Shown here piece after piece: positions 16,294 to 37,918 of a stretch of 42,226 bases of DNA. Origin of the DNA: Spirochaetales bacterium. Lineage in GTDB: Bacteria; Spirochaetota; Spirochaetia; DSM-2461. The notes under the pieces are model-generated. The model was given only the letters and a program-made list of their open reading frames with translations, made no database searches and was not told the origin of the DNA. How positions within the stretch are numbered: the stretch's first letter is position 1; every line of letters starts with the position of its first letter. Made by a program: the position numbers and the translations under genes. The DNA is taken from contig JAFGPQ010000011.1 of assembly GCA_016936115.1 (NCBI GenBank), forward strand, positions 1-42,226, written 5' to 3'.

Positions 16294-16309
16294 TAACAAG
16301 GAGCATGAC

Positions 16310-17500: not shown

Positions 17501-17510
17501 CCGGAATCAA

Positions 17511-17539
17511 TTGACAGGTTCGTCCGGACATGGTAGTTT
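17511..17539 (+). promoter_or_regulatory. Promoter for a leaderless thioesterase transcript
   Basis: A perfect TTGACA (17511-17516), a 17-base spacer and TAGTTT (17534-17539) end exactly 6 bases before the GTG start at 17546. Transcription would begin at the start codon. No Shine-Dalgarno is present. Confidence 0.6.
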
Positions 17540-17545
17540 TTTTCT

Positions 17546-17947
17546 GTGAATAACTATACCATCGTCCGGTTCGAACATCTGAATCAGCATGACAATCTCT
17601 TCGGCGGCCAGATGCTCAGCTGGGTGGATGAATTCGCCTGGCTCACCGCCGCCCGGGATTTCCCCGGTTACCGTCTGGTCACCCGGGCCATGGATAAAAT
17701 CAGCTTTGAGAAAAACGTTCCCAACGGTTCCATCCTGAGGTTCCACATACTCCCCTGTAAACAGGGCAACAGCAGTATCACCTACATGGTGGACGTTTTC
17801 GCCGATGCCCCCGGGGCCAGCGGCGAGGTTCTCGTCTTCGGCACCAAGGTCACCTTCGTCAGCATTTCCGAGACGGGAGAAAAGGTTCCCCTGCCCAAAA
17901 GCGACGTCCTGAGATCCCAGAGAGAGGAATTTCTCTCCCAGATCTGA
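17546..17947 (+). CDS. Hotdog-fold acyl-CoA thioesterase (YciA/BACH-like)
   Basis: 133 residues. The N-terminal part NQHDNLFGGQMLSWVDEFAWL matches the core of YciA-type acyl-CoA thioesterases, where the conserved N/D-LFGG segment forms the active-site turn. KISFEKNVPNGSILRF and GEVLVFGTKVTFVSI supply the hotdog strands. It should hydrolyse acyl-CoA to CoA and free acid in the cytoplasm. The GTG start is needed to include the N-terminal strand, and no later start would keep the LFGG motif with its leader. No ribosome-binding site is present. The next gene makes an enzyme of CoA synthesis, so both touch CoA supply, but each seems to have its own promoter. Confidence 0.87.
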   Translation: MNNYTIVRFEHLNQHDNLFGGQMLSWVDEFAWLTAARDFPGYRLVTRAMDKISFEKNVPNGSILRFHILPCKQGNSSITYMVDVFADAPGASGEVLVFGTKVTFVSISETGEKVPLPKSDVLRSQREEFLSQI

Positions 17948-17958
17948 AACCCTATCGA

Positions 17959-17988
17959 TTGACAATTTCTCCCTCAAAGTCCTATTAT
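17959..17988 (+). promoter_or_regulatory. Promoter upstream of coaX
   Basis: TTGACA (17959-17964) and TATTAT (17983-17988) with an 18-base spacer. The transcript would begin near 17995, leaving a leader of about 80 bases that contains the inverted words AATCAA (18042-18047) and TTGATT (18055-18060). Confidence 0.55.
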
Positions 17989-18077
17989 GGAAACAGCCGG
18001 GTCGATTCGTTGAACGGTACCGGCGGTAAAAAACTTATCTTAATCAATTCAGACTTGATTCAAAGGGACAGGATCTG

Positions 18078-18848
18078 ATGACACTAGCACTTGATGTGGG
18101 CAGTTCCCGGATATTCGGGGGACTGATACAGGACGGCGGCGTTCTGGCTTCTTTTCACAAAAATACCTCCACCGGACTCACCAGGGATGAACTGGGGCTT
18201 TTTCTGGTGCAGTGGCTCGAAACCCGGGGTTACCGAAAGGAAGACATAGGACTCTTCGTTTACTGCTCCGTGGTACCCGAACTGAACCGGGTGCTAGAAG
18301 AGTGCGGCCGTATCTATCTGGAAAGGGAAGCCCTGACTCTCAGGGCGGGCGTAAAAAGCGGTTTGCAGGTTAAGTATACCAACCATCAGGAGTTGGGTGC
18401 GGATCTGATAGCCAATGCGGTGGGAGCCGCCGGCAGCCATCCCGACAGAAACCTCATCATAGTCGATTTCGGAACAGCCACGAGTCTATGCGCTGTGAGC
18501 AAAGAGAGAGAATACCTGGGGGGCACCCTCATACCTGGACTTACCATAGCCATGGAGGCCCTGGCGGACAGAACGGCCCGGCTTCCCGTGGTAGAGATCG
18601 CTCCGGTGGGCAGAGTCTGCTCCCGGGATACGGTCAGCGCCATTCAGGGGGGTCTTTTCTACGGAACCCTGGGCATGCTCAAGGAACTCATAAAACGGCT
18701 CAGCCGGGAGTGCTTTCCCGAAGAAAGCGTTCTTGTCATAGCCACGGGAGAACAGGCCCGGCTTTTTGAGAAATTTTCTCTCTTCGATCACATCATACCG
18801 GAGCTCGTCCTTCTGGGACTGGATCGGATCCGTCATCTGAACTCATAA
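18078..18848 (+). CDS. coaX: Type III pantothenate kinase
   Basis: 256 residues of the CoaX type (ASKHA fold). It has the N-terminal phosphate loop LALDVGSS (D6; usually DxGNT, so the loop is slightly divergent), ELGADLIANAVGA with catalytic D109, the second phosphate motif VDFGTATS (D130) and PGLTIAMEAL. The enzyme phosphorylates pantothenate with ATP, the first step of coenzyme A synthesis; the type III form is insensitive to CoA feedback. A GGGACAGGA site precedes the ATG. It lies 28 bases before pdxS, so CoA and vitamin B6 synthesis may share a transcript. Confidence 0.92.
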   Translation: MTLALDVGSSRIFGGLIQDGGVLASFHKNTSTGLTRDELGLFLVQWLETRGYRKEDIGLFVYCSVVPELNRVLEECGRIYLEREALTLRAGVKSGLQVKYTNHQELGADLIANAVGAAGSHPDRNLIIVDFGTATSLCAVSKEREYLGGTLIPGLTIAMEALADRTARLPVVEIAPVGRVCSRDTVSAIQGGLFYGTLGMLKELIKRLSRECFPEESVLVIATGEQARLFEKFSLFDHIIPELVLLGLDRIRHLNS

Positions 18849-18876
18849 TCTGAATTGACCAAGGCTGGAGGTCGCC

Positions 18877-19782
18877 ATGGGCGAACAGACCTGGTCTGCC
18901 AAGCAGACAGCAACATGGAAAAGCAAAGTAGGATTAGCCGAAATGCTCAAGGGGGGCGTTATCATGGATGTGGTAACCCCGGAACAGGCGAAAATTGCCG
19001 AGGAAGCGGGAGCCGCCGCCGTCATGGCTCTGGAAAGGGTCCCCGCGGATATCCGACGTGACGGAGGGGTAGCCCGCATGTCCGATCCGGAAATGATCAA
19101 GGGCATACAGGAGGCGGTCACCATTCCGGTTATGGCCAAATGTCGTATCGGCCACTTTACCGAAGCCCGCATTCTGGAAGCCCTCGCCCTGGATTTTATC
19201 GATGAGTCGGAGGTTCTTACCCCGGCGGACGACCGGTTTCACATATTCAAGGAAGACTTTGCCGTGCCCTTCGTCTGCGGCTGCCGTAACCTGGGCGAAG
19301 CTCTGCGCCGCATAGGCGAGGGAGCCGCCATGATCCGCACGAAAGGGGAAGCGGGCACCGGGGACATTCTGGAAGCGGTCCGCCACATGCGCACCCTCAA
19401 GGAGGAAATCGCCCAGCTGACCGTTCTCCCCCGGGAAACTCTTATGACCCGGGCTAAAGAACTGGGAGCTCCCTACGATCTGGTCTGCGAAGTGGCCCGC
19501 ATGGGCAAGCTGCCCGTACCGAATTTCTCAGCCGGAGGCGTAGCAACTCCCGCCGATGCGGCTCTGATGATGCACCTGGGAGCGGAGGCGGTCTTCGTAG
19601 GATCGGGTATCTTCAAGTCCGAATCACCCCAGAAGCGGGCCCGGGCCATTGTGGAAGCGGTCACCTACTATGAAGACCCGGCGAAACTGGCAGAGATATC
19701 CCGGAATCTGGGCGCCCCCATGACAGGCATCGGTATGGACGAACTGCTCCCTGACCAACGAATCGCCGGACGGGGCTGGTAA
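18877..19782 (+). CDS. pdxS: Pyridoxal 5'-phosphate synthase, synthase subunit
   Basis: 301 residues, a few longer than usual at the N-terminus. The family is highly conserved and visible here: [13 protein letters not shown] (D31), [21 protein letters not shown], the substrate-binding lysine K88 in MAKCRIGHF, the second lysine K156 in RTKGEAGTG, and [20 protein letters not shown]. The enzyme builds PLP from ribose 5-phosphate, glyceraldehyde 3-phosphate and ammonia, working as a dodecamer with PdxT. GGAGGT lies just before the ATG. The stop overlaps the pdxT ATG by one base, so the two subunits are translationally coupled. Confidence 0.97.
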
Positions 19783-20339
19783 TGGCCGTCCCGGGCATAC
19801 TGGCCCTACAAGGGGGATTTGAGGCGCACCGCCGTATTCTGGTCCAGCTGGGTTACGACCCGATCCTGGTGCGAACCGGGAGGGATCTGGACAGGGTGTG
19901 CTCTCTCATCCTCCCCGGCGGGGAGAGTACGGTCATGACTAAGCTGCTGAAGCGCGCCGATCTGTTCGAGCCTCTGGCGGAGAAAATTCAGGCCGGCCTG
20001 CCCGTCTTCGGTACCTGCGCCGGTATGATCCTGCTCTCCAACGGGGTGGAAGAGTCGGACCAGCCCACCCTTGGAGCCATGGATTTCACTGTCAGAAGGA
20101 ACGCCACGGGACGTCAGAAAGAGAGCTTTGAAGTTCCCCTGCTCTGGCAGGAAAAGAACTTCAGCGCCCTCTTCATCCGCGCCCCGGAAATCCAGCGGAT
20201 CGGTAACGGGGAAATGGTGCTGCTCAGCTACCGGGACAAACCGGTTCTGGTGCAGCAGGACAACTGCCTCGCCGCAAGCTTTCACCCCGAACTGACCGGC
20301 TTTACAGAAATCCACCGCTATTTCCTGAACCATATTTAA
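19782..20339 (+). CDS. pdxT: Pyridoxal 5'-phosphate synthase, glutaminase subunit
   Basis: 185 residues, standard length. It is a class I glutamine amidotransferase: the oxyanion region is LPGGES, the nucleophile is C79 in VFGTCAGMILL, and the His/Glu of the triad are H168 and E170 in SFHPELTG. It releases ammonia from glutamine and channels it to PdxS. The ATG overlaps the PdxS stop (TAATG). The gene ends the rightward unit and meets the leftward jag block about 70 bases later. Confidence 0.96.
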   Translation: MAVPGILALQGGFEAHRRILVQLGYDPILVRTGRDLDRVCSLILPGGESTVMTKLLKRADLFEPLAEKIQAGLPVFGTCAGMILLSNGVEESDQPTLGAMDFTVRRNATGRQKESFEVPLLWQEKNFSALFIRAPEIQRIGNGEMVLLSYRDKPVLVQQDNCLAASFHPELTGFTEIHRYFLNHI

Positions 20340-22975: not shown

Positions 22976-23209
22976 TCAGGGTACCGGATCATACCCGCCG
23001 GGATGGCGCGGATGGCAGCGTAGGATCCTTCTGACCGATAAATACATACCCTTGGCGAATCCGTATTTTTCCAGTGCTTCGGCGGAATAGGCGGAACAGG
23101 TGGGATAGAAACGACATGATCTTGGGAGAAAGGGGGATATGATTTTTCTATAAAACAAAACTAACAAACGGAAAGCTTTGCCTAAATACGTATTAATCCA
23201 CTTTAGCAA
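22976..23209 (-). CDS. yidD: Membrane protein insertion efficiency factor YidD
   Basis: 77 residues with the family core [32 protein letters not shown] and the C-terminal [17 protein letters not shown]. YidD is a small membrane-associated protein that assists YidC-dependent insertion. Three conserved Cys are present. The start overlaps the end of rnpA by 17 bases, and yidC follows after 43 bases. Confidence 0.95.
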
Positions 23210-23540
23210 GACCGGACCTTCTTATCAGGAAATGAAACTGTTCTTCCCTATCCCTGAAACTGTAATCGCCAGGATAGATAATAAGGATAACATCAAAACC
23301 CTGCTTAATAGCATCCTTATTATTCCTGAAGATCTCTTTCATAATCCGTCGGGCATAATTTCTCTGTACCGCATTGCCGTACTTTTTCCTGAGAGTGATA
23401 CCGATGCGGTTATACTCTCTCCCGTTTGGGGTAAAAAAAATTTTTGCGCCCCTGCACGAACTGGCGGCAGCGGACGCAAAAATTTTCTTGAAATCGGAAG
23501 AACTTCCGATTCGCTCATCCCTAGTAAGGTTTCTTTTCAC
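23193..23540 (-). CDS. rnpA: Ribonuclease P protein component
   Basis: 115 residues. It has [17 protein letters not shown] near the start and the family signature region [19 protein letters not shown] (RNR-like motif) in the middle. With the catalytic RNA it matures the 5' ends of tRNAs. The start is GTG at 23540, which lies inside the end of rpmH (20-base overlap); it ends 17 bases inside yidD. Nested overlaps of this type are known for rpmH-rnpA in some bacteria and suggest tight co-translation. Confidence 0.95.
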
Positions 23541-23676
23541 TGGAAACGGAAAGTTTCTTCCTGCCCTTTCTTCTTCTTCTGGAAAGAATCTCCCTACCGT
23601 TCTTCGTTTTCATTCTGGCTCTGAAACCCCAGCGTCTGTTTCTTTTCGTTTTACTGGGCTGATATGTTCTTTTCAT
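23521..23676 (-). CDS. rpmH: 50S ribosomal protein L34
   Basis: 51 residues: begins [22 protein letters not shown] and continues with [21 protein letters not shown], the typical very basic L34 sequence, with a short tail ending KKPY. It is slightly longer than the usual 44-46 residues because of that C-terminal extension, which is exactly the part that overlaps the rnpA start. AGGAG lies about 7 bases before the ATG. A strong promoter is directly upstream. L34 sits in the large ribosomal subunit. Confidence 0.97.
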
Positions 23677-23732
23677 CCGTCAGTCTCCTGATATTTTTAT
23701 ACTACACAGTTTTATGCAAATAAAGCGAAGTA

Positions 23733-23761
23733 ATTTTAGTTGCCTCGAAAGATTATGTCAA
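23733..23761 (-). promoter_or_regulatory. Strong sigma-70 promoter of rpmH
   Basis: Read leftward: TTGACA (23756-23761), a 17-base spacer and TAAAAT (23733-23738). It would drive rpmH-rnpA-yidD-yidC-jag, starting about 50 bases before the rpmH ATG. Confidence 0.8.
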
Positions 23762-23766
23762 CTGCG

Positions 23767-23786
23767 AAAAGGGGGATTAATCTCCC
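23767..23786 (-). terminator. Possible weak terminator after the DciA-like gene
   Basis: Read leftward, GGGAGATTAATCCCCC is a near-perfect inverted repeat with a very small loop, followed by TTTT. It overlaps the stop codon of the DciA-like gene and lies just before the rpmH promoter. The short loop and short T-run make it weak. Confidence 0.3.
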
Positions 23787-24196
23787 AAATTCCGTAAGTT
23801 TTGTAAAAGTGAGGAGAATTCTTCATCCTGAGCAGGCAAATCCTCCCTGTCCGACTCTTCCCGGTATTCTTCGATAAGCCGGGCGTTTTTCAGAAGTTCC
23901 CGGTTAATGTTTTCTTTCCCGCAGAAAACACGAAAGCTTCTGATATCCATGCGGGGAAACTGTTTCTTGATCTTTCTGAGCAGGGCGGTTTTCTTTATAT
24001 AGAATATCTGCGCCCATCCGGGATGATCGCAATTCAAGAGAAGTACCCCGTTTTTGATGTCCTTTACTGTCAGGTGGGCCGCCAGATCGGTTCCCACCAT
24101 TTTTTCCCAGGAGGAGATAAAGCCGATCCACTCCTCCCCTTCGGCGATAATCTCCCGGTCAAAAAACTGTTTGATGATATCCGTAGCGTCTCTCAT
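23777..24196 (-). CDS. DUF721/DciA-like protein
   Basis: 139 residues. The segment FISSWEKMVGTDLAAHLTVKDIKNGVLLLNCDHPGWAQIF is typical of DUF721 (WxxxVGxxLAxHTxPxxxxxGxLxVxxxxxxWAxEL). In many bacteria this domain is DciA, which helps load the DnaB replicative helicase. The C-terminal third is charged (EESDREDLPAQDEEF). The start overlaps the recF stop (by 4 bases), and recF, dnaN and dnaA follow upstream, so a replication role is a reasonable inference. The family is assigned by motif only. Confidence 0.82.
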   Translation of the reverse strand: MRDATDIIKQFFDREIIAEGEEWIGFISSWEKMVGTDLAAHLTVKDIKNGVLLLNCDHPGWAQIFYIKKTALLRKIKKQFPRMDIRSFRVFCGKENINRELLKNARLIEEYREESDREDLPAQDEEFSSLLQNLRNLGD

Positions 24197-25275
24197 CGCT
24201 TAGTCAGTACTCCCTTTTCTATATCAAAGAATATACTGTTCTGTCCGCTCTGGTAAGTGTCGTCCCCGGGTAGAAAGGTAAAAAAAGCCTGTTCGTAGGG
24301 GGGAAGACAGTCCAGAAGAAGTTTCCTTTTTTCCCTGTCCAGTTCCAGAAGCACATCATCCAGGAGGAGAATCGGCTTTTTCTCCTGACTGGCGCTGATG
24401 AAATCGGCCTGGGCAATACGCATAATCAGGGAAACCAGACGCATTTGTCCTGTGGAACCGAAATCAACGAAATTCTTACCCCCGTGCATGAAAACAAAGT
24501 TATCCCTGTGGGGACCGTACAGGGAGGATCCCCGGAAAATTTCCTTATCCTCCCGGGAACGGAGAAAGTCGAAAATCTCTTTATCCTCCTCCATATTTCT
24601 CCAGGAGGGCTGATAGGTGATGACAAGATCCTCCTCGAGACCGGAAATTTTTCTAAAGTACCGGCTGAAGTGGATATTGAAGAGGGAAGTCAGTTCCTTA
24701 CGCCGAGTCTGGATTTCCTTGCCGGTTGTCACCATCTGAACCGTATAGATCTCCAGGAGGTCCCTCTTTTTCTCTTTAAGAAGCTTATTGCGGGTAAAGA
24801 GGATTTTCTTATATTTCCTCAGAGAATCCACATAGTAGGGATACTGATAGCTTAAGGTCTGATCGAAAAAAAGCCGCTTTCTTTCGGGGGATCCGTTCAC
24901 AAAGGAGAGATCGTCATGACAAAAAACCACGCAGGGAATGTTATTTATAAGTTCTTTCCGGTCCCGTATGATTTTGTCATCCAGTTTCGTGGTACGGGCG
25001 CCGTTTTTGAAGGATATTCCCAGGGATCCGAACTGCTGCCCGTTGAAGGAATAGCGGGCTCCGGTGAAAAAGCCCTCTTTACCGTGGCGGCACAGATCCT
25101 TCTCAGATTTCCCACGAAAGGAGGAGGCATAGCAGAGATAGTAGATCATTTCCAGAAAATTCGTCTTTCCCTGGCCGTTCAGGCCAACGAGAAAAATATT
25201 ATCCGCTCCGCTCAGATCAATCCGGCTGTCTTCCAGGTTTCTGAAATTAACGGAACGGACGCCGGTGAAGCCCAA
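24193..25275 (-). CDS. recF: DNA replication/repair protein RecF
   Basis: 360 residues. It has FRNLEDSRIDLSG at the N-terminus, Walker A GLNGQGKT (31-38), the ABC-type signature region FGSTGQMRLVSLIMR and Walker B ILLLDDVLLELD, all normal for RecF. The protein helps load RecA at single-strand gaps with RecO and RecR. The first usable start is TTG at 25275, only 7 bases after the dnaN stop, so translation is probably coupled to dnaN. Its C-terminal end overlaps the DciA-like gene by 4 bases. Confidence 0.95.
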   Translation of the reverse strand: MGFTGVRSVNFRNLEDSRIDLSGADNIFLVGLNGQGKTNFLEMIYYLCYASSFRGKSEKDLCRHGKEGFFTGARYSFNGQQFGSLGISFKNGARTTKLDDKIIRDRKELINNIPCVVFCHDDLSFVNGSPERKRLFFDQTLSYQYPYYVDSLRKYKKILFTRNKLLKEKKRDLLEIYTVQMVTTGKEIQTRRKELTSLFNIHFSRYFRKISGLEEDLVITYQPSWRNMEEDKEIFDFLRSREDKEIFRGSSLYGPHRDNFVFMHGGKNFVDFGSTGQMRLVSLIMRIAQADFISASQEKKPILLLDDVLLELDREKRKLLLDCLPPYEQAFFTFLPGDDTYQSGQNSIFFDIEKGVLTKR

Positions 25276-25282
25276 TCCCGGC

Positions 25283-26389
25283 CTAGTCCATCTGCATGGG
25301 CATTACCACGTGCAGATAATCCTTTTCAGGATTGCTCTGCAGTGTAACGGCCCTGTTTTTCTCGGTAAAGAGGAAAAGAATGTTGTCCTCGTCGATAACA
25401 TTCAGAGGTTCTATCAGATAGGTGTAATTCAAAGCGAAAGTCGTTTCCGGTCCCTCATAGGTACAGGAAACCTTTTCACGGGCCGTACCCACGTCGCTCT
25501 CTTCCGACTTGAGAATGATCTGATCCCCTTCCACGGTCAGGAAAATCTTCTTGGATTTATGCTCCGCCAGAATGGAAACACGGCGCAGGGCATTGGAGAG
25601 ATCCTCCTTGTTGATAACCACCCGGTTGTCCTGATTTTCGGGGATAACCTTGCGGTAATTGGGAAACTGACCGTCTATAAGGGATGAGGAAATTTTCTGA
25701 TTGTCGAAGCGGACGAAAATAGACTTGTCCACCACGGCTATCTGGATGTTTCCCTCTCCGGAGGCGAGTTTTTTAATAAGCTGAAGGATTTTCGGGGGAA
25801 CGATGATTCCGGGGAAATCGGGAATATTCTCTTCGAATTCCCTTCCGATATAGGAGAGTCTTCTTCCGTCGGTTCCCACCATAACGAGACGGGAATCCTC
25901 CTTCTCCATATAGACACCGTTCATAAAGTAACGGGTTTCATCATCGGAAATGGAGAAAATGGTATGGGAAATCATTTCCATGAAGAGTTTCTGGGAAAGT
26001 TCGAAGTAGGATGCGTCGTCCACGGCGAGAAGTTCGGGGAATTTGTCCGCATCGATCGTATTCAGCTGAAAGGAGATGTTCTCATCCTCCGTACGAATGA
26101 TCATTTTTTCATTGTTCACCTGCTCAAAGGTAATGGTTCCGCTGGGAAGTGAGCGGATGATGCCCAGAAATTTATCACAGTAGATTGTGGTGCTTCCCGC
26201 TTCTTCTATCTCTACGGGTATAACCGTTTCAAAACCCACTTTCAGATCAGTAGCTTTGATGGTGAGGGAGTTATTATCCGCCTCGAGAAGAACATTGGAC
26301 AGAATGGAAAGGGCATTTCTGGAAGAAACGATGTCCTGGGCAATAGAAATTTCTTTTAAAATGATATTTTTGTCGCATTTAAATTTCAT
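25283..26389 (-). CDS. dnaN: DNA polymerase III sliding clamp (beta subunit)
   Basis: 368 residues, three repeated clamp domains as expected. Recognisable pieces are LSNVLLEADNNSLTIKATDLKVG near the start, YFMNGVYMEKEDSRLVMVGTDGRRLSY in the middle and the C-terminal YLHVVMPMQMD, where VMPMQ is the classic clamp ending. It forms the ring that tethers polymerase III to DNA. The ATG at 26389 follows AAAGGAGA. The gene faces away from the origin, co-directional with the fork moving left. Confidence 0.97.
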   Translation of the reverse strand: MKFKCDKNIILKEISIAQDIVSSRNALSILSNVLLEADNNSLTIKATDLKVGFETVIPVEIEEAGSTTIYCDKFLGIIRSLPSGTITFEQVNNEKMIIRTEDENISFQLNTIDADKFPELLAVDDASYFELSQKLFMEMISHTIFSISDDETRYFMNGVYMEKEDSRLVMVGTDGRRLSYIGREFEENIPDFPGIIVPPKILQLIKKLASGEGNIQIAVVDKSIFVRFDNQKISSSLIDGQFPNYRKVIPENQDNRVVINKEDLSNALRRVSILAEHKSKKIFLTVEGDQIILKSEESDVGTAREKVSCTYEGPETTFALNYTYLIEPLNVIDEDNILFLFTEKNRAVTLQSNPEKDYLHVVMPMQMD

Positions 26390-26432
26390 GAAAGAATTCT
26401 CCTTTCAGGGGATGATTATGGAAATTTATGAT

Positions 26433-26446
26433 AACACATTTGTGTT
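26433..26446. promoter_or_regulatory. Palindrome in the dnaN control region
   Basis: AACACATTTGTGTT has 6-base arms around a 2-base centre and lies about 45 bases before the dnaN start. It overlaps the likely promoter zone (leftward TTGAAA at 26444-26449). A binding protein is not known. Confidence 0.35.
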
Positions 26447-26490
26447 TCAAACGAAAGCCTTCTATTTCTAAATTTATTAATTTATAACAG

Positions 26491-26505
26491 TAGTAATAGT
26501 AGTAG
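26491..26505 (+). promoter_or_regulatory. DnaA-trio element
   Basis: Five contiguous triplets TAG-TAA-TAG-TAG-TAG. Read 3' to 5' they are GAT, GAT, GAT, AAT, GAT, which fits the DnaA-trio consensus (3'-[G/A]A[T/A]-5') that guides DnaA filaments onto one strand during opening. A CAG triplet precedes them, and GGCC separates them from the nearest DnaA boxes. Confidence 0.75.
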
Positions 26506-26591
26506 GGCCTGTGAATTTGTGAAAAGGGGTACTATATAACAATTATATAATAAATTAGAAGAAGGATAAGTCTGAGGAAAAAACGGCCATT

Positions 26592-26672
26592 TTATCCACA
26601 TAATCACAGGAAGCCCGGTTACCCACAGGAATCCACCGGTTTACCCTGAACAGACTAACAGAGTTATCCACA
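26592..26672 (+). promoter_or_regulatory. Cluster of three DnaA boxes
   Basis: TTATCCACA at 26592-26600 and 26664-26672 are perfect; TTACCCACA at 26619-26627 differs by one base. All three have the same orientation. Confidence 0.85.
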
Positions 26673-26772
26673 AGCGTTTGGAATTGATAATTGGATTGCA
26701 GGGTTGAGTGATAAATAACTATATTGTCTTGCTGCGTTAGCTCCTGGGAGCCAAATAATTGCAAAAAGCCCA

Positions 26773-26803
26773 ATTCTTAATTCTGCATTCCTAATTCTTC
26801 ATT
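26773..26803. repeat. AATTCTTCATT-type intergenic repeat, copy 2
   Basis: Matches the element at 20378-20408 at 28 of 31 positions, with the T and G of the two internal words exchanged. It begins 3 bases past the dnaA stop codon, the same placement as copy 1 behind jag. Confidence 0.6.
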
Positions 26804-26806
26804 TAC

Positions 26807-28198
26807 TCAGGAGTAAATATTCTTCTTCAGTTCCGTGATCATCGGTTCCAGGGTGGAGTCAACGGCCATGCGCTCATCGATTCTCTGACAGGCGTGCATA
26901 ACAGTGGTGTGATCCTTACCGCCGAATTCAATACCGATTTCCGTTGTGGAATAATCGGTCAGTTCCCGCGAGAGAAACATGGCTATGTGACGGGGGAAGG
27001 TTATTTTCTGAGTTCTTTTCTTCCCTTTGATATCCATGATGGAAACATTGAAATACTCGGAAACGACCTTCTGTATTTTTGCGATATTCACAGCAGTCTG
27101 GGGGGAGACTGAGAAGTACTGCTGCAGAAGGTTCTTCACCGTCTCAACGGTGATATCCTTTTTAACTATATCCGCATAACCGATAATTCTGTTCAGGGCC
27201 GCCTCCAGATCTCTGATGTTTGATGTGATATTCCGTGAGATAAATTCAATCACTTCCAGGGAGATCTCACCGGTATAGTTAGTCTGTTCAATCTTTTTCT
27301 TGATAATGGCTATACGGGTTTCATAACTGGGGGGCTGGAGATCCACCATGAGGCCTCTCTGGAAACGGCTCTTGAGGCGGTCATTGAATTTTTTCAGCTC
27401 CGAGGGGGGTCTATCGCAGGTGAAGACAAGCTGTTTGTCAAAATCGTATAGGGCATTGAAGGTATGGAAGAGCTCTTCCTGGGTATCGTTCTTGTCCTGG
27501 AGATCATGGATATCGTCCAGAAGCAGAAGATCCACCTTGCGGTATTTATTTTTGAAATTGTTCTGCGTATTGGTTCTGATGGACTGGATAAATTCGTTGA
27601 CGAAAGTTTCGCTGGGAATACAGACTATTTTTGCCTGGGGATTTGCTTCATAGACCTGATTTCCTATGGCCTGCATCAGGTGGGTTTTACCCAGGCCGAC
27701 TCCTCCGTATATAAGGAAGGGATTATACTGGGTTTTACCCGGATTATCGGCGATAGCCTTGGCGGCCCCCACGGCAAAATCATTATTATTGCCGATCACG
27801 TAATTATCGAAGGTGAAATTCGTCTGCAGCTGAGGATGGGAAACCCTTCTTTCGGAAACAGGAATGCTCTTTTTCACCGTTTCCCGAACGGGAGCGATTT
27901 CTTCAGGGTCATCATCATCATAAACTTCCTCCTCCTTATTCTCTGAAATGATGAAATCCACCTTGATTCGGGAACCGGAAAGTTCTTCCAGGGTTTTTTC
28001 AATAAGAGTGTTATAGTTACGGGAGAGAACCTGGTCACGATAGAAACGGGAAGGGGTTTCAATAATGAGTTGCGAATTATCATAGGATTTGTAAACCAGT
28101 TTTTCAAACCAAAGATGGAATTCCGCCTCGTCTATCTTATTTTCCCTTATCTGACGGATGCATTCGTCCCAAAAGACTTTGAACTCCAAGTTGGCCAT
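26807..28198 (-). CDS. dnaA: Chromosomal replication initiator DnaA
   Basis: 463 residues with all four domains. Domain I spans about 1-80. A short acidic linker follows (EEEVYDDDDPEE). The AAA+ domain is recognised by NFTFDNYVIGNNNDFA, Walker A GGVGLGKT (165-172), Walker B LLLLDDIHDL and an Arg-containing sensor region. The C-terminal DNA-binding domain has the DnaA signature GGKDHTTVMHACQRIDE. DnaA binds DnaA boxes and opens the origin. CAGGAG precedes the ATG, with an extended -10 element upstream. The origin lies just past its 3' end, between it and dnaN. Confidence 0.98.
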   Translation of the reverse strand: MANLEFKVFWDECIRQIRENKIDEAEFHLWFEKLVYKSYDNSQLIIETPSRFYRDQVLSRNYNTLIEKTLEELSGSRIKVDFIISENKEEEVYDDDDPEEIAPVRETVKKSIPVSERRVSHPQLQTNFTFDNYVIGNNNDFAVGAAKAIADNPGKTQYNPFLIYGGVGLGKTHLMQAIGNQVYEANPQAKIVCIPSETFVNEFIQSIRTNTQNNFKNKYRKVDLLLLDDIHDLQDKNDTQEELFHTFNALYDFDKQLVFTCDRPPSELKKFNDRLKSRFQRGLMVDLQPPSYETRIAIIKKKIEQTNYTGEISLEVIEFISRNITSNIRDLEAALNRIIGYADIVKKDITVETVKNLLQQYFSVSPQTAVNIAKIQKVVSEYFNVSIMDIKGKKRTQKITFPRHIAMFLSRELTDYSTTEIGIEFGGKDHTTVMHACQRIDERMAVDSTLEPMITELKKNIYS

Positions 28199-28228
28199 AA
28201 AAATCTACTCCTGGTCTTATATACGCAT

Positions 28229-28237
28229 ACTATAGCA
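28229..28237 (-). promoter_or_regulatory. Extended -10 element for dnaA
   Basis: Read leftward, TGCTATAGT is an extended -10 (TGnTATAGT) about 30 bases before the dnaA ATG. The rest of the 136-base gap to gyrB is A/T-rich and holds TATAAT words at 28289-28294 and 28312-28317 that could serve gyrB. No DnaA box is seen in this gap. Confidence 0.45.
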
Positions 28238-28334
28238 TAATTTCAGAGGGAATGACTATCTTTACTTTTTTAGTCTTGAAAGATATAATATAATGGTTAT
28301 TTTCCCCATACTATAATTATTAGCAGGTAGAATC

Positions 28335-30245
28335 ATGTCCAACAATTACGATGCTCAGAGTATTCAGATACTGAAAGGTCTGGAGGCAGTCCGTAAACGT
28401 CCGGGAATGTATATCGGCTCAACCGGGACAGACGGTCTTCATCATCTTGTTTATGAAATAGTGGATAACAGTATCGATGAAGCCCTGGCCGGTTATTGTA
28501 ATGAAATCTGTGTCTTTATTGAAGAGAATGATATAATCAGAGTCACCGATAACGGACGGGGTATTCCCACGGGAATTCATCTTGTGGAAGGAATAAGCGC
28601 GCTGGAAGTGGTTATGACGAAACTGCACGCGGGCGGTAAGTTCGACAAAGGTACGTACAAGGTATCCGGCGGACTTCACGGAGTGGGTGCGGCTGTTGTA
28701 AATGCTCTCTCGGACTGGTGTGAAGTCAGTGTTAATCAAAACGGAAAGGTTCATCGTCAGACTTATAAAAAAGGTATACCCGACGGTCCCATGGAAATTG
28801 TGGGAGACACCGACCAGACCGGTACTATTACGCGATTCAAGCCGGACAGTTCCATTTTTGATGAACTGATCTACAGTTATGACGTGCTTTCCCAGAGACT
28901 GCGGGAGCTGGCCTTTCTGAACAAGGGTGTCCACATTAATCTGAAAGATGAGAGACCGGGGCAGACCAAGAGCAATAATTTCATGTTCGAAGGGGGAGTG
29001 AAATCCTTCGTCGAGTATCTGAATAAGAAAAAGGTACCTCTCCATGAGGAGCCGGTTTATTTTGAAACCATCAAGGATGACATTACCGTAGAAGTGGCCA
29101 TGCAGTATAATGATGGGTTCTCCGAAGTTATATTTTCTTACGTCAACAACATTAATACGAGAGAAGGCGGTACGCATCTCTCCGGATTCAAAACAGCTTT
29201 GACCAGGACCATGAACAACTTCTTGCAGCAGGATACGAAGCTTTCCAAGAAGGCGGATGAGAGTTTTTCCGGGGACGATGTCCGGGAAGGACTCACCTGC
29301 GTCATTTCAGTAAAAGTACCGGAACCCCAGTTTGAAGGGCAGACGAAAACGAAGCTGGGAAACTCGGAAGTGAGAGGTCTTGTGGATTCCCTGGTAAATG
29401 AAGAGCTGACCTCTTATTTTGAAGAGAATCCCCGGGTTATCGGAGTTATTCTCGAAAAAGCTATGCTGGCAGCCAAGGCGAGAGCCGCTGCCAGAAGGGC
29501 CCGGGAAAACGCCCGTCGTAAAAACCCCCTTGACGGTGCCAGTCTTCCGGGCAAACTGGCGGACTGCGCCGATAAGAATCCGGAAAACTGCGAAGTCTTC
29601 ATTGTCGAGGGAGATTCGGCAGGGGGTTCGGCTAAGCAGGGTCGGGACAGATCAATTCAGGCGATACTTCCTCTCTGGGGGAAAATGCTGAATGTGGAAA
29701 AGACCCGGGTGGAGAAGGTTATTTCCAATGATAAGATGTATCCCATCATCGCAGCTCTCGGAACTAATTTGGGAGATGAGTTCAATATAGAAAAACTTCG
29801 CTACCATAAGATTATCATCATGGCCGATGCGGATGTGGACGGATCCCATATCAGAACCCTGCTGCTTACCTTTTTTGTCCGATATATGCAGCCCCTGGTT
29901 GAGAAGGGCCATATCTATCTGGCCATGCCGCCCCTTTATAAAGTCAGTTACGGCAAGCAGTTCGGTTATGCCTTCGATGATGCGGAGCGGGATAATCTGG
30001 TAAAATCCTTTGCGGTGGATCCCGAGAAAATAGAGATTCAGAGATACAAGGGTCTGGGCGAAATGAATCCGGACCAGCTCTGGGAAACCACCATGAATCC
30101 GGAGACCAGAAATATAAAAAGAGTGACCATGGAAGATTTCGTTGCAGCGGATGAGATCTTTACCATTCTCATGGGCGAGGAAGTTCCCCCCCGTAGAAAG
30201 TTTATTGAGGATAACGCCCTTTCCGTTGTGAACCTTGATGTGTAA
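28335..30245 (+). CDS. gyrB: DNA gyrase subunit B
   Basis: 636 residues, the short form without the large insert of enteric GyrB. The GHKL ATPase domain shows [23 protein letters not shown] and [15 protein letters not shown]. The TOPRIM domain shows [15 protein letters not shown] and [17 protein letters not shown]. The C-terminal [21 protein letters not shown] binds Gyr[13 protein letters not shown], with Trp where most phyla have Arg, is a spirochaete-like feature. With GyrA it introduces negative supercoils. gyrA follows after 12 bases in one operon. Confidence 0.98.
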
Positions 30246-30257
30246 CAGGAGTGCAGA

Positions 30258-32843
30258 GTGAGTGATTTTCAGGGAAAAGTCATACCCATCGCCATTGAAG
30301 ATGAGGTAAAAGAGTCCTATCTGAATTATGCCATGTCCGTAATTGTCAGCCGTGCGCTGCCGGACATTCGTGACGGTCTGAAGCCGGTCCACCGGAGAAT
30401 TCTCTATTCCATGAGTGAAATGGGTCTCCGCTATAACAGCAAGGAAAAAAAGTGTGCCCGTATTGTGGGTGACGTACTCGGTAAATTCCATCCCCACGGA
30501 GATGCTTCGGTATACGATGCCCTGGTCAGAATGGCCCAGGATTTTTCTCTGAGAGAACCCCTGGTTCACGGACAGGGAAATTTCGGTTCCGTAGACGGGG
30601 ATCCCCCAGCTGCCATGAGATACACCGAAGCCAAGATGGCCCGTATTTCCGAGGCCATGCTGAGGGATATCAAGAAGGAAACCGTCGATTTCGGGCCCAA
30701 CTACGATGATTCCATGCAGGAACCCCTTGTTCTTCCCGCGGCATTTCCCGCTCTGCTGGTTAACGGTTCCAACGGTATCGCCGTCGGTATGGCTACAAAT
30801 ATGCCTCCCCACAACCTGGGAGAGGTTTGCGACGCAGTCTGTGCCCTGATCGAAGATCCGGAATTGACCATTGAGGATCTTCTGGAATATGTGAAGGGAC
30901 CCGACTATCCCACGGGAGCCACTATTTACGGCAAAGTGGGCATCCGCATGGCGGCAAAAACCGGCCGGGGAAAAATTATCGCCCGAGCCAAGTATCACCT
31001 GGAAGAGTTAAGGGGTGACAGGGAAGCCATTATCTTCACAGAAATTCCCTACCAGGTGAATAAGGCAAAGCTGATTGAAAGAATTGCCGAGCTGGTAAAG
31101 GAAAAACGGATTGAGGGCATCTCGGAGCTGAGAGATGAGTCGGACCGGCAGGGTATGCGTATCGTTATTGAATTGAAGAAGAGCATTCCCACGAAAGTTG
31201 TTCTGAATCATCTTTTCTCCTTAACCCCGCTTCAGTCCAATTTCAACGTAATTAACCTGGCCCTTGTTGACGGAAAACCCAAGCTATGTAATCTCAAGCT
31301 CATTCTGAATCATTTCATTGCCCACCGGCAGGATGTTATCAGACGGCGCTGTATCTTCGATCTTGAAAAAGCTAAGGCAAGAGCCCATATTCTGGAAGCC
31401 CTTAAGGTAGCCCTTGATAATATTGATGAGATTGTCGAAATCATCAAGAAATCTGAAAATGTGAATATGGCCCGGGTTAACCTGATGGAGAGATTCAGTT
31501 TCACTGAAATCCAGGCCCAGGCGATTCTGGATATGAGGCTGCAGAAGCTCACCAGTCTGGAAACCCAGAAGATCATCGATGAACTGAACGAAGTCCTGGC
31601 CGAAATTGCCTACCTGGAAGACCTTCTTGCCCATGAAGAGAAGATTCTGGGCGTTATCAAGGATGAAACCCAGGAGTTGAAGGAGAAGTACGGTAATCCC
31701 CGCAAGACAGATATTCTACCCGAAGAGCTGGAAAGCATGAATATGGAGGACTTCATCAAGAAGGAGAACATGGTCGTTCTTATCTCCAACAGGGGTTTTA
31801 TCAAGAGAATTGCCGTAACTGAATACAAAGAGCAGAGCCGGGGAGGTAAGGGTTCCAATACATCAAAGCTCAAGGATGATGATTTCATAGAGCACATGTT
31901 TATAGCCAATACCCATACCCATATCATGTTTGTTACCAATAAGGCCAAAGCTTACTGGCTTAAGGTCTACGAAATACCCGAAGGCTCCCGGGCCTCCAAG
32001 GGAAAACACCTCAGGACCATTTTTGAATTCGAAGAGGATGAGGAGATTACCGCATCCGTTCCCCTGGAAGAGTTCAGAGAGGACCAGTACCTGTTCATGG
32101 CCACGAAGAATGCGGTTGTGAAAAGGGTTTCCACCTATGATTTCAGAAATGCGAAGATGAGAGGTATCAGAGCTATTGATCTGGATGAGGGGGATTCCCT
32201 GGTTACGGCTAAGCTGACCTACGGTGACGGTGATATTATGCTTGTCACAAAGAGGGGCAAGGGGTTACGGATTAACGAAGAGAATGTTCGCTGTATGGGC
32301 CGTGTTGCCCGGGGTGTCAGAGGTATAAAGCTGGCCGAAGGTGATGAGCTTATCGGTATGTGTAATGTCAATGACGATTATAAGATGCTCCTTATTTCTG
32401 AATACGGCTACGGAAAGCGAACCGACTTCAATGAGTTTTCTGCTCACGGAAGAGGTACGGGAGGTCAGAAAGCCTATGGCGTTAATAAAAAGACCGGAGA
32501 ACTTGTGGGTATTCTTTCCGTTCTTGAAGAGGATAGTATAATCTGTATTACATCACAGGGAAAGGCTATCCGATTACCGGTACACTCCATTTCTATCAAC
32601 GGGCGAGCGGCTTTCGGCGTACGTGTTCTGAATACGGGATACGATGATAAGCTTATCGGTTTGGCCCGTCAGGAAAAGGAAAACGAGGATAATGTCACAT
32701 CAGAAGATGAAGAAGATGATAATCAGCTTGAGTTAATCGGAGACGAAAATGATTCCGGTGTTTCACGTGAAACAATATCCGAAGATGAAACTGATGAGGA
32801 TGAACAGGAAGATTCGGAAGATCAGGATGATACTGACGAGTAA
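30258..32843 (+). CDS. gyrA: DNA gyrase subunit A
   Basis: 861 residues from a GTG start with CAGGAG upstream. The breakage-reunion domain has catalytic Y122 (AMRYTEAKM). The quinolone-determining region reads [10 protein letters not shown]: position 83 is Ala (Ser in E. coli) and 87 is Asp, as in mycobacteria, which predicts lowered fluoroquinolone sensitivity. The C-terminal beta-pinwheel has a GyrA-box variant QSRGGKG. The last ~50 residues are an extremely acidic tail (Glu/Asp runs). A perfect parS site is embedded in the DNA coding for that tail, at codons for GVSRETI. A strong terminator follows the stop. Confidence 0.98.
32759..32774. promoter_or_regulatory. parS: parS site 1, inside gyrA
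   Basis: TGTTTCACGTGAAACA is the exact 16-bp ParB-binding consensus, a perfect palindrome. It lies within the gyrA coding sequence, in the acidic tail. Confidence 0.9.
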
Positions 32844-32864
32844 TTAACAGCTTATTAAAAATAG

Positions 32865-32890
32865 GGGATGGCGATTGCCATCCCTTTTTT
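32865..32890 (+). terminator. Rho-independent terminator of gyrBA
   Basis: GGGATGGC and GCCATCCC form a perfect 8-bp stem with a GATT loop, followed by six T. It ends 47 bases after the gyrA stop. Confidence 0.92.
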
Positions 32891-32905
32891 GTTTCACGTG
32901 AAACA
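32890..32905. promoter_or_regulatory. parS: parS site 2, downstream of gyrA
   Basis: A second exact TGTTTCACGTGAAACA, starting on the last T of the gyrBA terminator. It is 131 bases from the first copy, start to start. Confidence 0.92.
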
Positions 32906-32928
32906 TTAGGTGATAAATTCCTATACCT

Positions 32929-33062
32929 GTGGAAAACTTCGGGGTTAAATTCCTATTTTAGTGATATCAAAAAACGCGCATATTAATTCTATGTATTATA
33001 AGGAATAAATTCATCAGGAAAACGGAATATCAAAATTAATCCGGTGGATAAGATGTGGATAA
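32929..33062. promoter_or_regulatory. DnaA-box-like sites between gyrA and nfu
   Basis: TGTGGAAAA (32929-32937) fits the relaxed box consensus, GGTGGATAA (33043-33051) has one mismatch and TGTGGATAA (33054-33062) is perfect. All are in one orientation, opposite to the main oriC boxes. They may titrate DnaA or form a secondary cluster. Confidence 0.55.
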
Positions 33063-33086
33063 AAAAAACTGCTCCTACAGGAGCAG
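33061..33086 (-). terminator. Rho-independent terminator of the nfu gene
   Basis: Read leftward, CTGCTCC, loop TGTA and GGAGCAG form a 7-bp stem followed by a T-run (the A-run at 33061-33068). It ends the leftward Fe-S scaffold gene. Confidence 0.85.
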
Positions 33087-33111
33087 CTCTTAACCTGAGA
33101 TAAAGAAGTTT

Positions 33112-33342
33112 TTAGATATTCTCTACTGAAGAAATCTCAGGAACAACCTTTTTAAGATAGTTCTCCACTCCCTGCTTCAGTGTCATCTGCGCCATGGGGC
33201 ATCCGTTACAGGCTCCCTGCAGTTCTACCTTTACAATATTCTCATCGGTGATTTCAACGAACCGGATATCACCACCATCGGCCTGAAGACTGGGTCTTAC
33301 TTCTTCAAGTGCCTGGGAAACTCTTTCTTTAAGATCGCTCAT
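33112..33342 (-). CDS. NifU-like (Nfu) iron-sulfur scaffold protein
   Basis: 76 residues, a stand-alone Nfu domain. It has RPSLQADGGDIRFVEI at 16-31 and the CxxC motif in GACNGCPMAQMTLKQGVE (C45, C48), which binds a 4Fe-4S cluster as a dimer and passes it to target enzymes. AAAGGAG precedes the ATG at 33342. It is a single-gene unit with its own terminator, and diverges from the GntR gene. Confidence 0.93.
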   Translation of the reverse strand: MSDLKERVSQALEEVRPSLQADGGDIRFVEITDENIVKVELQGACNGCPMAQMTLKQGVENYLKKVVPEISSVENI

Positions 33343-33418
33343 GGATTTCTCCTTTTTATGATGAGTATAATAATTATTTATCCCTATTTCAACACCTAAT
33401 TTATCGGGAAAAACATAA

Positions 33419-33447
33419 TTGACGGGGGTATGAAACTATTCTATTAT
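33419..33447 (+). promoter_or_regulatory. Promoter of the GntR-SDR operon
   Basis: TTGACG (33419-33424), a 17-base spacer and TATTAT (33442-33447). The transcript would start about 12 bases before the ATG at 33466. Confidence 0.6.
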
Positions 33448-33465
33448 TACATAAGAGGTTAAAGG

Positions 33466-34170
33466 ATGAATTCTATTGTTAAAGAACCGGTCTATCTTCA
33501 GATCTGTCATGTTCTGAAAGAGTTAATCGACAAGGGAGAATTCTCCCGGGGAAGTCGTTTTTTATCGGAGCGAGAGGTCAGTGCCCGTTTTGATGTAAGT
33601 AGAACAACAGCAAATAAAGCTCTCTCCAGCCTGGTGGGGGAGGGAATCCTCACCTATAAAAAAGGTGTCGGTACTTTTGTTTCCGAGGGTTCTGCTAAAG
33701 TCAGTATCGATATTCAGGAATTCCTGAAGCATACCCCCCATATGAGCTATGATATAAAGGTCTTCTGCGAGAGAGCCTTTAAGGATCTCCCCGATTCCAT
33801 TCAAAATGTCTTTAGCGAAGCTCATCCGGTATACTATATCATGACCGTATATTCCCTATCCGGTTCCCCAGTCATTATTAACAGGAAATATATTAACACT
33901 CCCGATTCGCTTAAATCCGGGGAGAAATTTATTAAGAATGACTATTTTGAGTATAACCTGGTAAAAAAGGAAATCAATCTTTCCCGTCTCAAGAAAAATG
34001 ATGCCCCCCTAATGAAAATGAATGAAGGGGATACTCTGTATCTGGTAAGAGATGAACTGGTGAAGGAAGACAGTGTTGTCTATGATGTCAGTCTACTGAA
34101 GTCCGAGAATATCAGCTTTATCATGGATTTGGATGGTATCATGAAGATCAGTTGCCAGGGTGAAATTTAA
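33466..34170 (+). CDS. GntR family (HutC/UTRA-type) transcriptional regulator
   Basis: 234 residues. The N-terminal winged helix-turn-helix is typical: EPVYLQICHVLKELIDKGEF, FLSEREVSARFDVSRTTANKALSSLVGEGIL, GVGTFVSEG (about 7-75). The rest (about 90-234) resembles a UTRA ligand-binding domain (YYIMTVYSLSGSPVIINRKYI, LYLVRDELVKEDSVVYD). It should respond to a small molecule, often a sugar phosphate or amino acid in this family. The stop is immediately followed by the ATG of an SDR gene with no gap, so the regulator probably controls its own operon. Confidence 0.92.
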   Translation: MNSIVKEPVYLQICHVLKELIDKGEFSRGSRFLSEREVSARFDVSRTTANKALSSLVGEGILTYKKGVGTFVSEGSAKVSIDIQEFLKHTPHMSYDIKVFCERAFKDLPDSIQNVFSEAHPVYYIMTVYSLSGSPVIINRKYINTPDSLKSGEKFIKNDYFEYNLVKKEINLSRLKKNDAPLMKMNEGDTLYLVRDELVKEDSVVYDVSLLKSENISFIMDLDGIMKISCQGEI

Positions 34171-34962
34171 ATGACGGTAAATAACAGAGTCGTTTGGATT
34201 ACGGGAGCCTCATCGGGAATAGGGGAGGCGCTGGCCTATGAATTTCATAAAAAGGGCGCCCGGGTTGTCATTTCAGCCCGAAATAAGGAGAAATTGGATC
34301 AAATATCTCAATCTCTGGGAGAAAACTGTTACGTTCTCCCCCTGGATATGATGGAACGGAATTCCTTTGGGGAAGCTCTCGAATCTGTTTTACAGAAGTG
34401 GGGGCGAATCGATATTCTCATTAATAATGCCGGTATCAGTCAAAGATCCCTGGTCGCGGATACGGATATAACCGTTGTTGAGAAAATTATGATGACGAAT
34501 TACGTGGGTCCCGCCGGCCTTACCGGTTTAGTCATCCCCCATATGATTGAAAGAAATGAGGGATACTGCCTCTTTGTCAGCAGTGTGGCCGGTAAATTCG
34601 CCACCCCTCTCCGCAGTTCCTATGCAGCCTCGAAAATGGCTCTGCAGGGATTTACCGATTCCCTAAGAGCAGAGGTTCATCATCAGGGGATAAGGGTCTC
34701 CCTTATTGTGCCCGGTTTCGTTAAAACGGCTATCTCACTGAATGCCCTGGAGGGAAAAGGGAACCAGCACGGCTTGATGGATCCCAATCAGGAAAGGGGC
34801 ATATCTGCGGAACAAGCGGCGAAAATTATTGTAAAAGGGATTGAAAAGGAAAAACGCGAGATCTATCTTGGTATGGTGGCTAAGACACGATTTGCCCTGT
34901 TCCTAAGCCGCTATATTCCTTCTCTTCTGGCTGTGGTGATGCGTAAAGCGAAAGTAACCTAA
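34171..34962 (+). CDS. Short-chain dehydrogenase/reductase
   Basis: 263 residues. The cofactor motif is TGASSGIG (11-18), the central motif LINNAGISQRS, the catalytic Ser lies in FVSSVAG, and the pair Y151xxxK155 is in YAASKMALQGF. The VSLIVPGFVKTAIS segment and a hydrophobic C-terminus (FALFLSRYIPSLLAVVMRK) resemble the DHRS7-like branch, often membrane-associated. It is an NAD(P)-dependent oxidoreductase of unknown substrate. It has no own ribosome-binding site and relies on coupling to the GntR gene. It meets the leftward metallophosphoesterase gene 5 bases later. Confidence 0.92.
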   Translation: MTVNNRVVWITGASSGIGEALAYEFHKKGARVVISARNKEKLDQISQSLGENCYVLPLDMMERNSFGEALESVLQKWGRIDILINNAGISQRSLVADTDITVVEKIMMTNYVGPAGLTGLVIPHMIERNEGYCLFVSSVAGKFATPLRSSYAASKMALQGFTDSLRAEVHHQGIRVSLIVPGFVKTAISLNALEGKGNQHGLMDPNQERGISAEQAAKIIVKGIEKEKREIYLGMVAKTRFALFLSRYIPSLLAVVMRKAKVT

Positions 34963-34967
34963 CGTGG

Positions 34968-36032
34968 CTAACCCAGAAAAAGATCCAGACAGTCGGAAAT
35001 ATAGGATATGTAATCGGACTTAATAACAGCCCGGCTGTAGTTCGTCCCTTCCAAAGGCTGAGCCTTCCTGATCATCTTGGATCTCTTTTGGGGAGTATTC
35101 CTGTCGAACCAGTATACCAGGGATATTTTCCCCCGGTTCAATTCAATACAGGAGATTCCTCTCTTTCCGATGGCACAGCCGGAATTAAAGAGGCAGGGCA
35201 CAATAACTTCATCGGAATAGATGGAGTGAGCCAGATCTCCGAACTTATCGTCCTTTGTAATTTCATCCAATTCTTTCTTGAGCTTCCTTATTTTCTTCCG
35301 TAACTTTTCATGCTTGTCCGGTGAGGCATCCCGGTAAGTCCGCAGGAGATACTCTATTTTGTATTTAACCATCTCTTTACGGGATTGGGATTCGAAAAGG
35401 GGCCTGTGAGTATGGCCGATGATGGATACGATCTTCTTATACTGTGAAAACTGATAGGAGTGCTTCTCCAGGTAGTGCTTCTTCCAGTTATTGTCCTTGT
35501 CGGAATAGTTTTTGATGCCCAGGGGTTTGGCTATATAATGGAGGGCAAACTCCACCAGTTTATTGAAACGGCTGTAGAAGCGGGAAGACTGATGGCCGTG
35601 ATAAACAAAAAAATCCTGCCTATTCCAGGTGAATGTGACTCCATCGTGAAGGGGAAACAGTTGATGCTGACTCAACTCCAGCAGAAGCTTGTCATCGTGG
35701 TTTCCGCATATTTTCGTCAGTCTCTTGTCCCTGTTATACAGGGTGAAAACCTCATAAAGGTCCTTCCAGTACTCTCTGATACGGGGTAGTGAAAATTTCT
35801 GCAGCTCCTCCACATCACCGTTCAGTATCAGATGCCATTTCTTTTGGTTATAGTATTTCTCAAGGATTTCCTGAACCATAGGGCCGTTATCGAGAAAATC
35901 ATCCTGCCGTTTGCCGTTGCCCATATGAAAATCACTGATGATGATAATCTTATCCTTATCGGTAAAGGTAAGGGGAGTGGCCTTGCGGTAGGTATGCTCC
36001 AGGGAAGGGTTAATTAAAATTTTACGTTTCAT
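34968..36032 (-). CDS. Calcineurin-like metallophosphoesterase
   Basis: 354 residues. The metal-binding motifs are present in order: IISDFHMGNG (D34, H36), LILNGDVEE, KICGNHDDKL, FVYHGHQSS and IGHTHRP. The C-terminal half has a Lys/Glu-rich helical insert (KHEKLRKKIRKLKKELDEI) and a final beta region. Substrates in this family range from nucleotides to lipid precursors; UDP-diacylglucosamine hydrolases share the DFHMG-like start but are shorter. Function is not settled. There is no Shine-Dalgarno; a -10-like TATATT lies 9 bases before the ATG. Confidence 0.88.
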   Translation of the reverse strand: MKRKILINPSLEHTYRKATPLTFTDKDKIIIISDFHMGNGKRQDDFLDNGPMVQEILEKYYNQKKWHLILNGDVEELQKFSLPRIREYWKDLYEVFTLYNRDKRLTKICGNHDDKLLLELSQHQLFPLHDGVTFTWNRQDFFVYHGHQSSRFYSRFNKLVEFALHYIAKPLGIKNYSDKDNNWKKHYLEKHSYQFSQYKKIVSIIGHTHRPLFESQSRKEMVKYKIEYLLRTYRDASPDKHEKLRKKIRKLKKELDEITKDDKFGDLAHSIYSDEVIVPCLFNSGCAIGKRGISCIELNRGKISLVYWFDRNTPQKRSKMIRKAQPLEGTNYSRAVIKSDYISYISDCLDLFLG

Positions 36033-36041
36033 TATAAGTAA

Positions 36042-36071
36042 AATATAATGGATTTGTTGGAAAAGTGTTAA
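36042..36071 (-). promoter_or_regulatory. Possible promoter of the metallophosphoesterase gene
   Basis: Read leftward: TTAACA (36066-36071), an 18-base spacer and TATATT (36042-36047). The -35 word overlaps the stop of the threonine aldolase gene. The transcript would begin at or within a few bases of the ATG at 36032. Confidence 0.4.
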
Positions 36072-37135: not shown

Positions 37136-37144
37136 GGGATTATG

Positions 37145-37846: not shown

Positions 37847-37918
37847 CTATTTCTAAATCCTCACAGGAAATTTACAAAAAAAGCTGGCGGGAGTGAAGTA
37901 TTTTTTCTTCCCATATTC

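Follow-up and report, generated by a model that had tools for sequence, protein, structure and literature searches.

A predicted spirochaete chromosomal origin with a conserved, putative DnaA-trio unwinding module between dnaA and dnaN

The gap between dnaA and dnaN in this Spirochaetales bacterium is very probably its chromosomal origin, with positions 26460–26526 as the predicted unwinding module, a basal unwinding system (BUS) by sequence. The observations behind this assignment concern sequence, order, spacing, conservation, unique position, the skew minimum of a relative and the contact residues of DnaA. The window, by which we mean the whole 42,226-nucleotide stretch analysed, is one contig (C209) of a 3.93-Mb draft assembly in 368 contigs. 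An earlier note, made from the letters of this DNA, had taken it to be spirochaetal; this is borne out by its nearest named relatives, which are Spirochaetaceae/Spirochaetales MAGs (DnaN identity 93% to Spirochaetaceae bacterium SZUA-368 and 90% to Spirochaetales bacterium bin_42). The gene neighbourhood is as follows, with jag and yidC also on the minus strand, like dciA, recF, dnaN and dnaA.

23777–24196, minus strand, dciA-like gene (replicative helicase operator); Pfam PF05258 DciA, 48.5 bits (cut-off 24)
24193–25275, minus strand, recF; TIGR00611, 306.7 bits
25283–26389, minus strand, dnaN, sliding clamp; TIGR00663, 350.5 bits
26390–26806, dnaA-dnaN intergenic region of 417 bp, predicted oriC; gap conserved in relatives
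26807–28198, minus strand, dnaA, DnaA initiator of 463 aa; NCBIfam TIGR00362, 519.8 bits; aligns with DnaA chain 8btg_A
28335–30245, plus strand, gyrB, divergent from dnaA; TIGR01059, 1005 bits
30258–32843, plus strand, gyrA; TIGR01063, 1175 bits

Since dnaA and dnaN both lie on the minus strand, the module reads leftwards in window coordinates, from dnaA to dnaN. Read in that direction on the minus strand, it consists of CTTTTCACA / AAATTCACA, GGCC, the triplets CTA CTA CTA TTA CTA CTG TTA, and TAAATTAATAAATTTAG. In plus-strand letters, the A/T-rich stretch (26460–26487) is followed by TAA CAG (26485–26490, the TAA being shared with that stretch), TAG TAA TAG TAG TAG (26491–26505), GGCC (26506–26509), and the boxes TGTGAATTT (26510–26518) and TGTGAAAAG (26518–26526). 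Its parts are:

26518–26526, minus strand, BUS DnaA box, first of a tandem pair; CTTTTCACA, 6/8 specified bases
26510–26518, minus strand, second (weak) BUS DnaA box of the pair; AAATTCACA, 6/8; at offset −13 from trio 1 in 23/67 gaps
26506–26509, minus strand, GC-rich spacer GGCC; reads GGGCC when the neighbouring trio base is included
26488–26505, trio strand plus, six DnaA-trios; 3'-GAT GAT GAT AAT GAT GAC-5' from 26505 down
26485–26487, plus strand, possible seventh trio 3'-AAT-5'; fits the loose NAN rule, as a triplet not conserved beyond the genus
26460–26487, A/T-rich stretch; 93% A+T, A/T-rich in relatives too

A CTA on the minus strand corresponds to a 3'-GAT-5' trio on the plus strand, so that the six trios comprise five GAT/AAT and one GAC. 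Melting would probably begin, and the helicase be loaded, in the A/T-rich stretch. All four components lie where the earlier note had placed them, in the order of the B. subtilis BUS, and its two weak overlapping boxes directly before the GC tract were found as described (co-oriented, 6/8 each, sharing one base). Their weakness counts against the BUS assignment, although the same-genus locus L003 has a perfect TTATCCACA at the position of the first. Two details needed amending. First, the trio run is present, but the conserved run is six triplets (26488–26505) rather than five. Second, the gap does contain DnaA boxes, but the strong ones (26592–26600, 26619–26627 and 26664–26672) are distal and face the opposite way. 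The published BUS survey looked in each predicted oriC for a DnaA box accompanied, within 16 bp, by at least three 3'-NAN-5' trios (Pelliciari et al. 2021, PMC8287927). In the window, six to seven trios begin 12 bp from the box at 26518–26526, and, as expected of a BUS, an A/T-rich region (26460–26487) borders the trio run at its end remote from the boxes. Because the published sequence definition fits and the unit lies in a predicted oriC, we classified it as a BUS by sequence.

The window has a single run of five consecutive YTA triplets, and such a run turned up in 0/100 shuffled windows and 0/5000 shuffled gaps. Across the 3.93-Mb assembly there are four 15-base YTA runs including the origin one, and one of the other three is identical to it in sequence, which fits a reading of the TAG/TAA run as a chance or slippage-born trinucleotide repeat (microsatellite) beside dnaN with no role in initiation. 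CACA is absent at the right distance from those other three runs; a YTA run with CACA 10–13 bp before it is found a single time in 3.93 Mb (reversed-pattern control, 0). When the strict pattern was searched over 197 whole genomes of the phylum with no location preset, it gave 13 matches, one per genome, of which 12 come immediately after dnaA and share its strand, and the thirteenth lies directly upstream of dnaN with a contig end adjoining, while the reversed control gave two matches in total. A microsatellite would account poorly for this confinement of the strict pattern to the dnaA-dnaN gap, for the joint conservation of the flanking box and GC block, or for a register, six-triplet length, 12-bp spacing and direction that persist among relatives at ~40–60% DnaA identity. 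Conservation thus largely refutes the microsatellite reading, to which we give almost no credence.

For the comparison with relatives, gaps were taken from the dnaA stop to the dnaN start and scanned on both strands for a box, 9–14 bp and trios, with scores judged against dinucleotide shuffles. Many other loci, without dnaN found beside dnaA (a genus of family f3; f23, f29 and others), fell outside this origin comparison. A box, a 12-bp spacer and six triplets were found in 40/46 distinct gaps of close relatives. The unit was also present in 28/34 sampled genomes of the same class, spanning 11/14 families, and in 10/21 sampled genomes from other classes; 80/81 scan matches scoring at least 12 were oriented from dnaA to dnaN. 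Genomes of the genus hardly differ in the block from CACAAATTCACAGGCC to ATAAATTAATAAATTT, whereas most of the remaining gap is divergent. The layout of the predicted module is therefore kept across most spirochaetes sampled, and the conservation of trio and boxes, proposed in the earlier note as a check that might refute its reading, held in close and distant relatives. The scan of the dnaA-dnaN gap yielded nothing above shuffles in the Leptospira-like families (f19) or in f37. The unit is thus not a feature of the whole phylum.

Several gaps deserve separate mention. A decayed unit is visible by eye in some that scored negative, such as L066, L163, L164 and L170, and a clade of close relatives (L011, L012, L015, L039) has a gap with CTACTAGTTTATAACTATATA only and no recognisable trio run. 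In family f5, probably Borreliaceae (~0.9-Mb chromosomes with dnaA mid-chromosome; L163–L166), box and trio seem to evolve separately: one genus (L165, L166) has six clear trios and poor DnaA boxes, and another (L163, L164) has the decayed run CTA CTA ATA CAA CTA TTA.

An information profile anchored on trio 1 gave TTWTCCACA at −21 to −13, then another, weaker box at −13 to −5, G/C at −4 to −1 and then six triplets, with conservation dropping at +17/+18 and A/T-rich sequence beyond; the box and the first three triplets in this profile are partly selected by the scan. Not forced by the scan are triplets 4–6, their sharp end and the exact 12-bp preference (53/78), which we take as evidence for probable evolutionary constraint on the 12-bp spacing and on a length of six triplets. 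A BUS is expected to have co-oriented tandem boxes of which the upstream one comes nearer to the consensus. In the window both score 6/8; in relatives the upstream box is the stronger, reaching at least 6/8 in 49/67 gaps versus 23/67 for the downstream one, a difference that partly reflects scan selection. The middle T was lost from triplet 4 in 15/78 sequences, from triplet 5 in 5 and from triplet 6 in 8. The triplet-4 losses fall in several separate lineages, with the later triplets mostly staying in register. Loss is commonest at the fourth triplet, which appears to be a tolerant position, a detail that is new here. Between the distal and BUS boxes, relatives also conserve two elements, one A-rich and resembling AAAGANNTA and the other TAA, at −36 to −28 and −52 to −50 relative to trio 1; both are weak in the window. 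We know of no counterpart to these elements.

The block sits directly upstream of dnaN, a place where DnaA can be a transcription factor, as suggested for B. burgdorferi dnaN (PMC9879097), and it might be a dnaN promoter/regulatory element or a dnaA autoregulatory site instead of an unwinding site. We consider this very unlikely, since a promoter would not be expected to have trio-matched triplet periodicity with a conserved T at the middle position (an A in the trio strand), nor to coincide with a skew minimum at the dnaA of a relative or with distal spacings like those of B. subtilis. Promoter and unwinding roles are in any case compatible and not exclusive.

GC skew, a further check proposed in the earlier note, also left the origin assignment standing. 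In G002, a complete genome of the same family, cumulative GC skew has its minimum at dnaA (3.12 Mb) and its maximum near 1.3–1.4 Mb, as measured in forty 20-kb samples ~100 kb apart and thus coarse away from dnaA; over the 40 kb around dnaA, the skew sign switches at ~3.12 Mb. The window's own cumulative skew reaches its lowest point at ~24.6 kb, which is 2 kb from the gap; that the skew is weak to the left of the gap is a point against the assignment. Bipartite origins exist in other phyla (for example in Helicobacter pylori), and the window skew is too weak to fix the turning point within a kilobase, so one might look for the true origin or a second sub-origin elsewhere, such as the gyrB-dnaA gap (28199–28334), with the trio block as an auxiliary element. 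That gap has no box above 6/8, whereas of the five exact TTATNCACA boxes in the window two fall in the dnaA-dnaN gap, where 0.05 would be expected by area; together with a further box that has a single mismatch, they make a DnaA-box cluster beside dnaA and dnaN. An origin elsewhere is therefore extremely unlikely in our estimation. Skew and conservation together support the earlier reading of the dnaA-dnaN gap as a putative oriC with a box, GC tract, trio and A/T-rich unwinding unit.

Upstream of the module, the gap carries five distal boxes, with offsets counted from trio 1:

26664–26672, plus strand, distal DnaA box TTATCCACA; offset −167, inverted relative to the BUS; same in both same-genus genomes
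26619–26627, plus strand, distal DnaA box TTACCCACA (7/8); offset −122, inverted; −123/−122 in 18/67 gaps
26600–26608, plus strand, weak distal box ATAATCACA (6/8); offset −103, inverted; −103/−102 in 19/67 gaps
26592–26600, plus strand, strong distal box TTATCCACA; offset −95, inverted; exactly −95 in 24/67 gaps, −95 to −93 in 36/67
26573–26581, minus strand, weak forward distal box TTTTCCTCA (6/8); offset −76; −76 to −74 in 25/67 gaps

The weak box at 26600–26608 is one 8-bp step from its neighbour at 26592–26600, and 55 bp separate the centre of the box at 26573–26581 from that of the BUS box. The inverted offsets −167, −122, −103 and −95 and the forward offsets −76, −21 and −13 are common to the window and the two same-genus genomes. 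In the non-redundant set of 67 gaps, the favoured positions are −95 (24 gaps), −103, −122/−123 and −132/−133 for inverted boxes, and −76/−74 and −65/−64 (55 and 44 bp centre to centre from the BUS box) for forward distal boxes, with peaks spanning up to nine labelled families. The position maxima (13 forward, 24 inverted) exceed those in shuffled sequences (at most 5 and 7) and in randomly slid sequences (at most 9 and 12), two controls that retain shared ancestry, so that the distal register could be partly inherited without constraint. That the positions persist while the sequence between the boxes diverges argues for constraint. The distal boxes are in fixed register relative to the BUS, which is new here.

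In B. subtilis, box #3 natively stands 44 bp from box #6, which is also the minimum distance for activity; beyond it, distal-box function is helically phased (PMC6669920). It is an evenly balanced proposal, on our assessment, that spirochaetes have a rigid ~165-bp layout composed of the BUS, forward boxes 44/55 bp upstream, an inverted overlapping −95/−103 pair mirroring the −21/−13 pair of the BUS (both 8-bp steps), and exactly six trios, the fourth dispensable. If true, this would point to an ancestral two-part, helically phased orisome common to spirochaetes and B. subtilis, extending beyond the trio module.

For most of its length, the window DnaA could be aligned with the DnaA chain in the solved structure 8btg; we assume that the numbering of this chain, with 446 residues, is that of B. 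subtilis DnaA. The window protein keeps the equivalents of all six residues that contact the trios in the B. subtilis BUS complex, Glu183, Asn187, Ile190, Ile193, Asn196 and Glu228 (PMC10721633), as well as the arginine finger Arg264. The equivalent of Arg202 (DnaA residue 216) is Lys in the window and in 56/65 scored sequences. B. subtilis Arg202 contacts the trio guanine, and Lys stands there in most spirochaetes examined. A link between this exchange and guanine-first trios was considered and dropped, as the mean number of C-first triplets of six did not differ (Lys 3.88 vs Arg 3.75).

We infer DnaA binding, filament formation, strand opening and looping from other species. ATP-DnaA would be anchored through domain IV on the co-oriented boxes 26518–26526 and 26510–26518, and the oligomer would extend across GGCC onto the plus strand. 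Its protomers would there grip six successive trios, from 26505 down to 26488, through the initiator-specific motif of the AAA+ domain, stripping the plus strand from its partner and opening the A/T-rich stretch in the direction of dnaN. The distal boxes at −76, −95/−103, −122 and −167, with their fixed helical spacings, would hold further DnaA, which probably loops onto the BUS complex, as is thought for the distal boxes of B. subtilis.

DnaA-trios were reportedly first described in a 2016 Nature paper, and biochemical tests of the module cover several Gram-positive species as well as Helicobacter, Synechococcus and Deinococcus. In B. subtilis, the origin unit sits between dnaA and dnaN. The window's unit resembles this incC/BUS in its gap location, its order of box pair, trios and A/T-rich sequence, its co-oriented tandem boxes, its six trios, its box-to-trio spacer (within the 10–13 bp peak) and the conserved ssDNA-contact residues of DnaA; a distal box at 44 bp centre to centre is a further likeness among spirochaete gaps. 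It differs in that its proximal boxes are weak, its strong distal boxes are inverted and Arg202 is replaced by Lys. Distal positions are evolutionarily fixed in spirochaetes, whereas B. subtilis tolerates many.

According to the main text of the 2021 survey, a BUS is predicted in 1755/2070 (85%) bacterial species; that text names no spirochaete and reports no unwinding test on one, and cultured spirochaetes may be among the supplementary entries (PMC8287927). As the BUS is known and widespread, our finding is a confirmation and no surprise. Our literature search found no paper combining DnaA-trio, oriC and spirochaetes. In Borrelia burgdorferi, the oriC lies in the same gene gap as the window's unit and DnaA binds this gap in EMSA; the paper limits itself to two hypothesised boxes and mentions no trios (PMC9879097). 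What is added to a known kind of element is constraint over much of the phylum, a distal register that is fixed and a fourth trio that appears tolerant. This extends the predicted DnaA-trio module to a phylum for which we found no trio study, the fixed 44/55-bp distal boxes offer natural support for the looping/phasing model derived from synthetic B. subtilis origins, and the recurrent loss of the fourth triplet provides a ready test of how many contacts a DnaA filament needs.

Two further features of the window were noted. Positions 1–20000 have a G+C content of 55% without skew and positions 23001–42226 one of 44–48%; the shift near 20–23 kb may reflect a regional effect, DNA acquired by transfer or a join made in assembly. 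The DciA-family gene immediately after recF is a candidate helicase-loading factor adjoining the origin.
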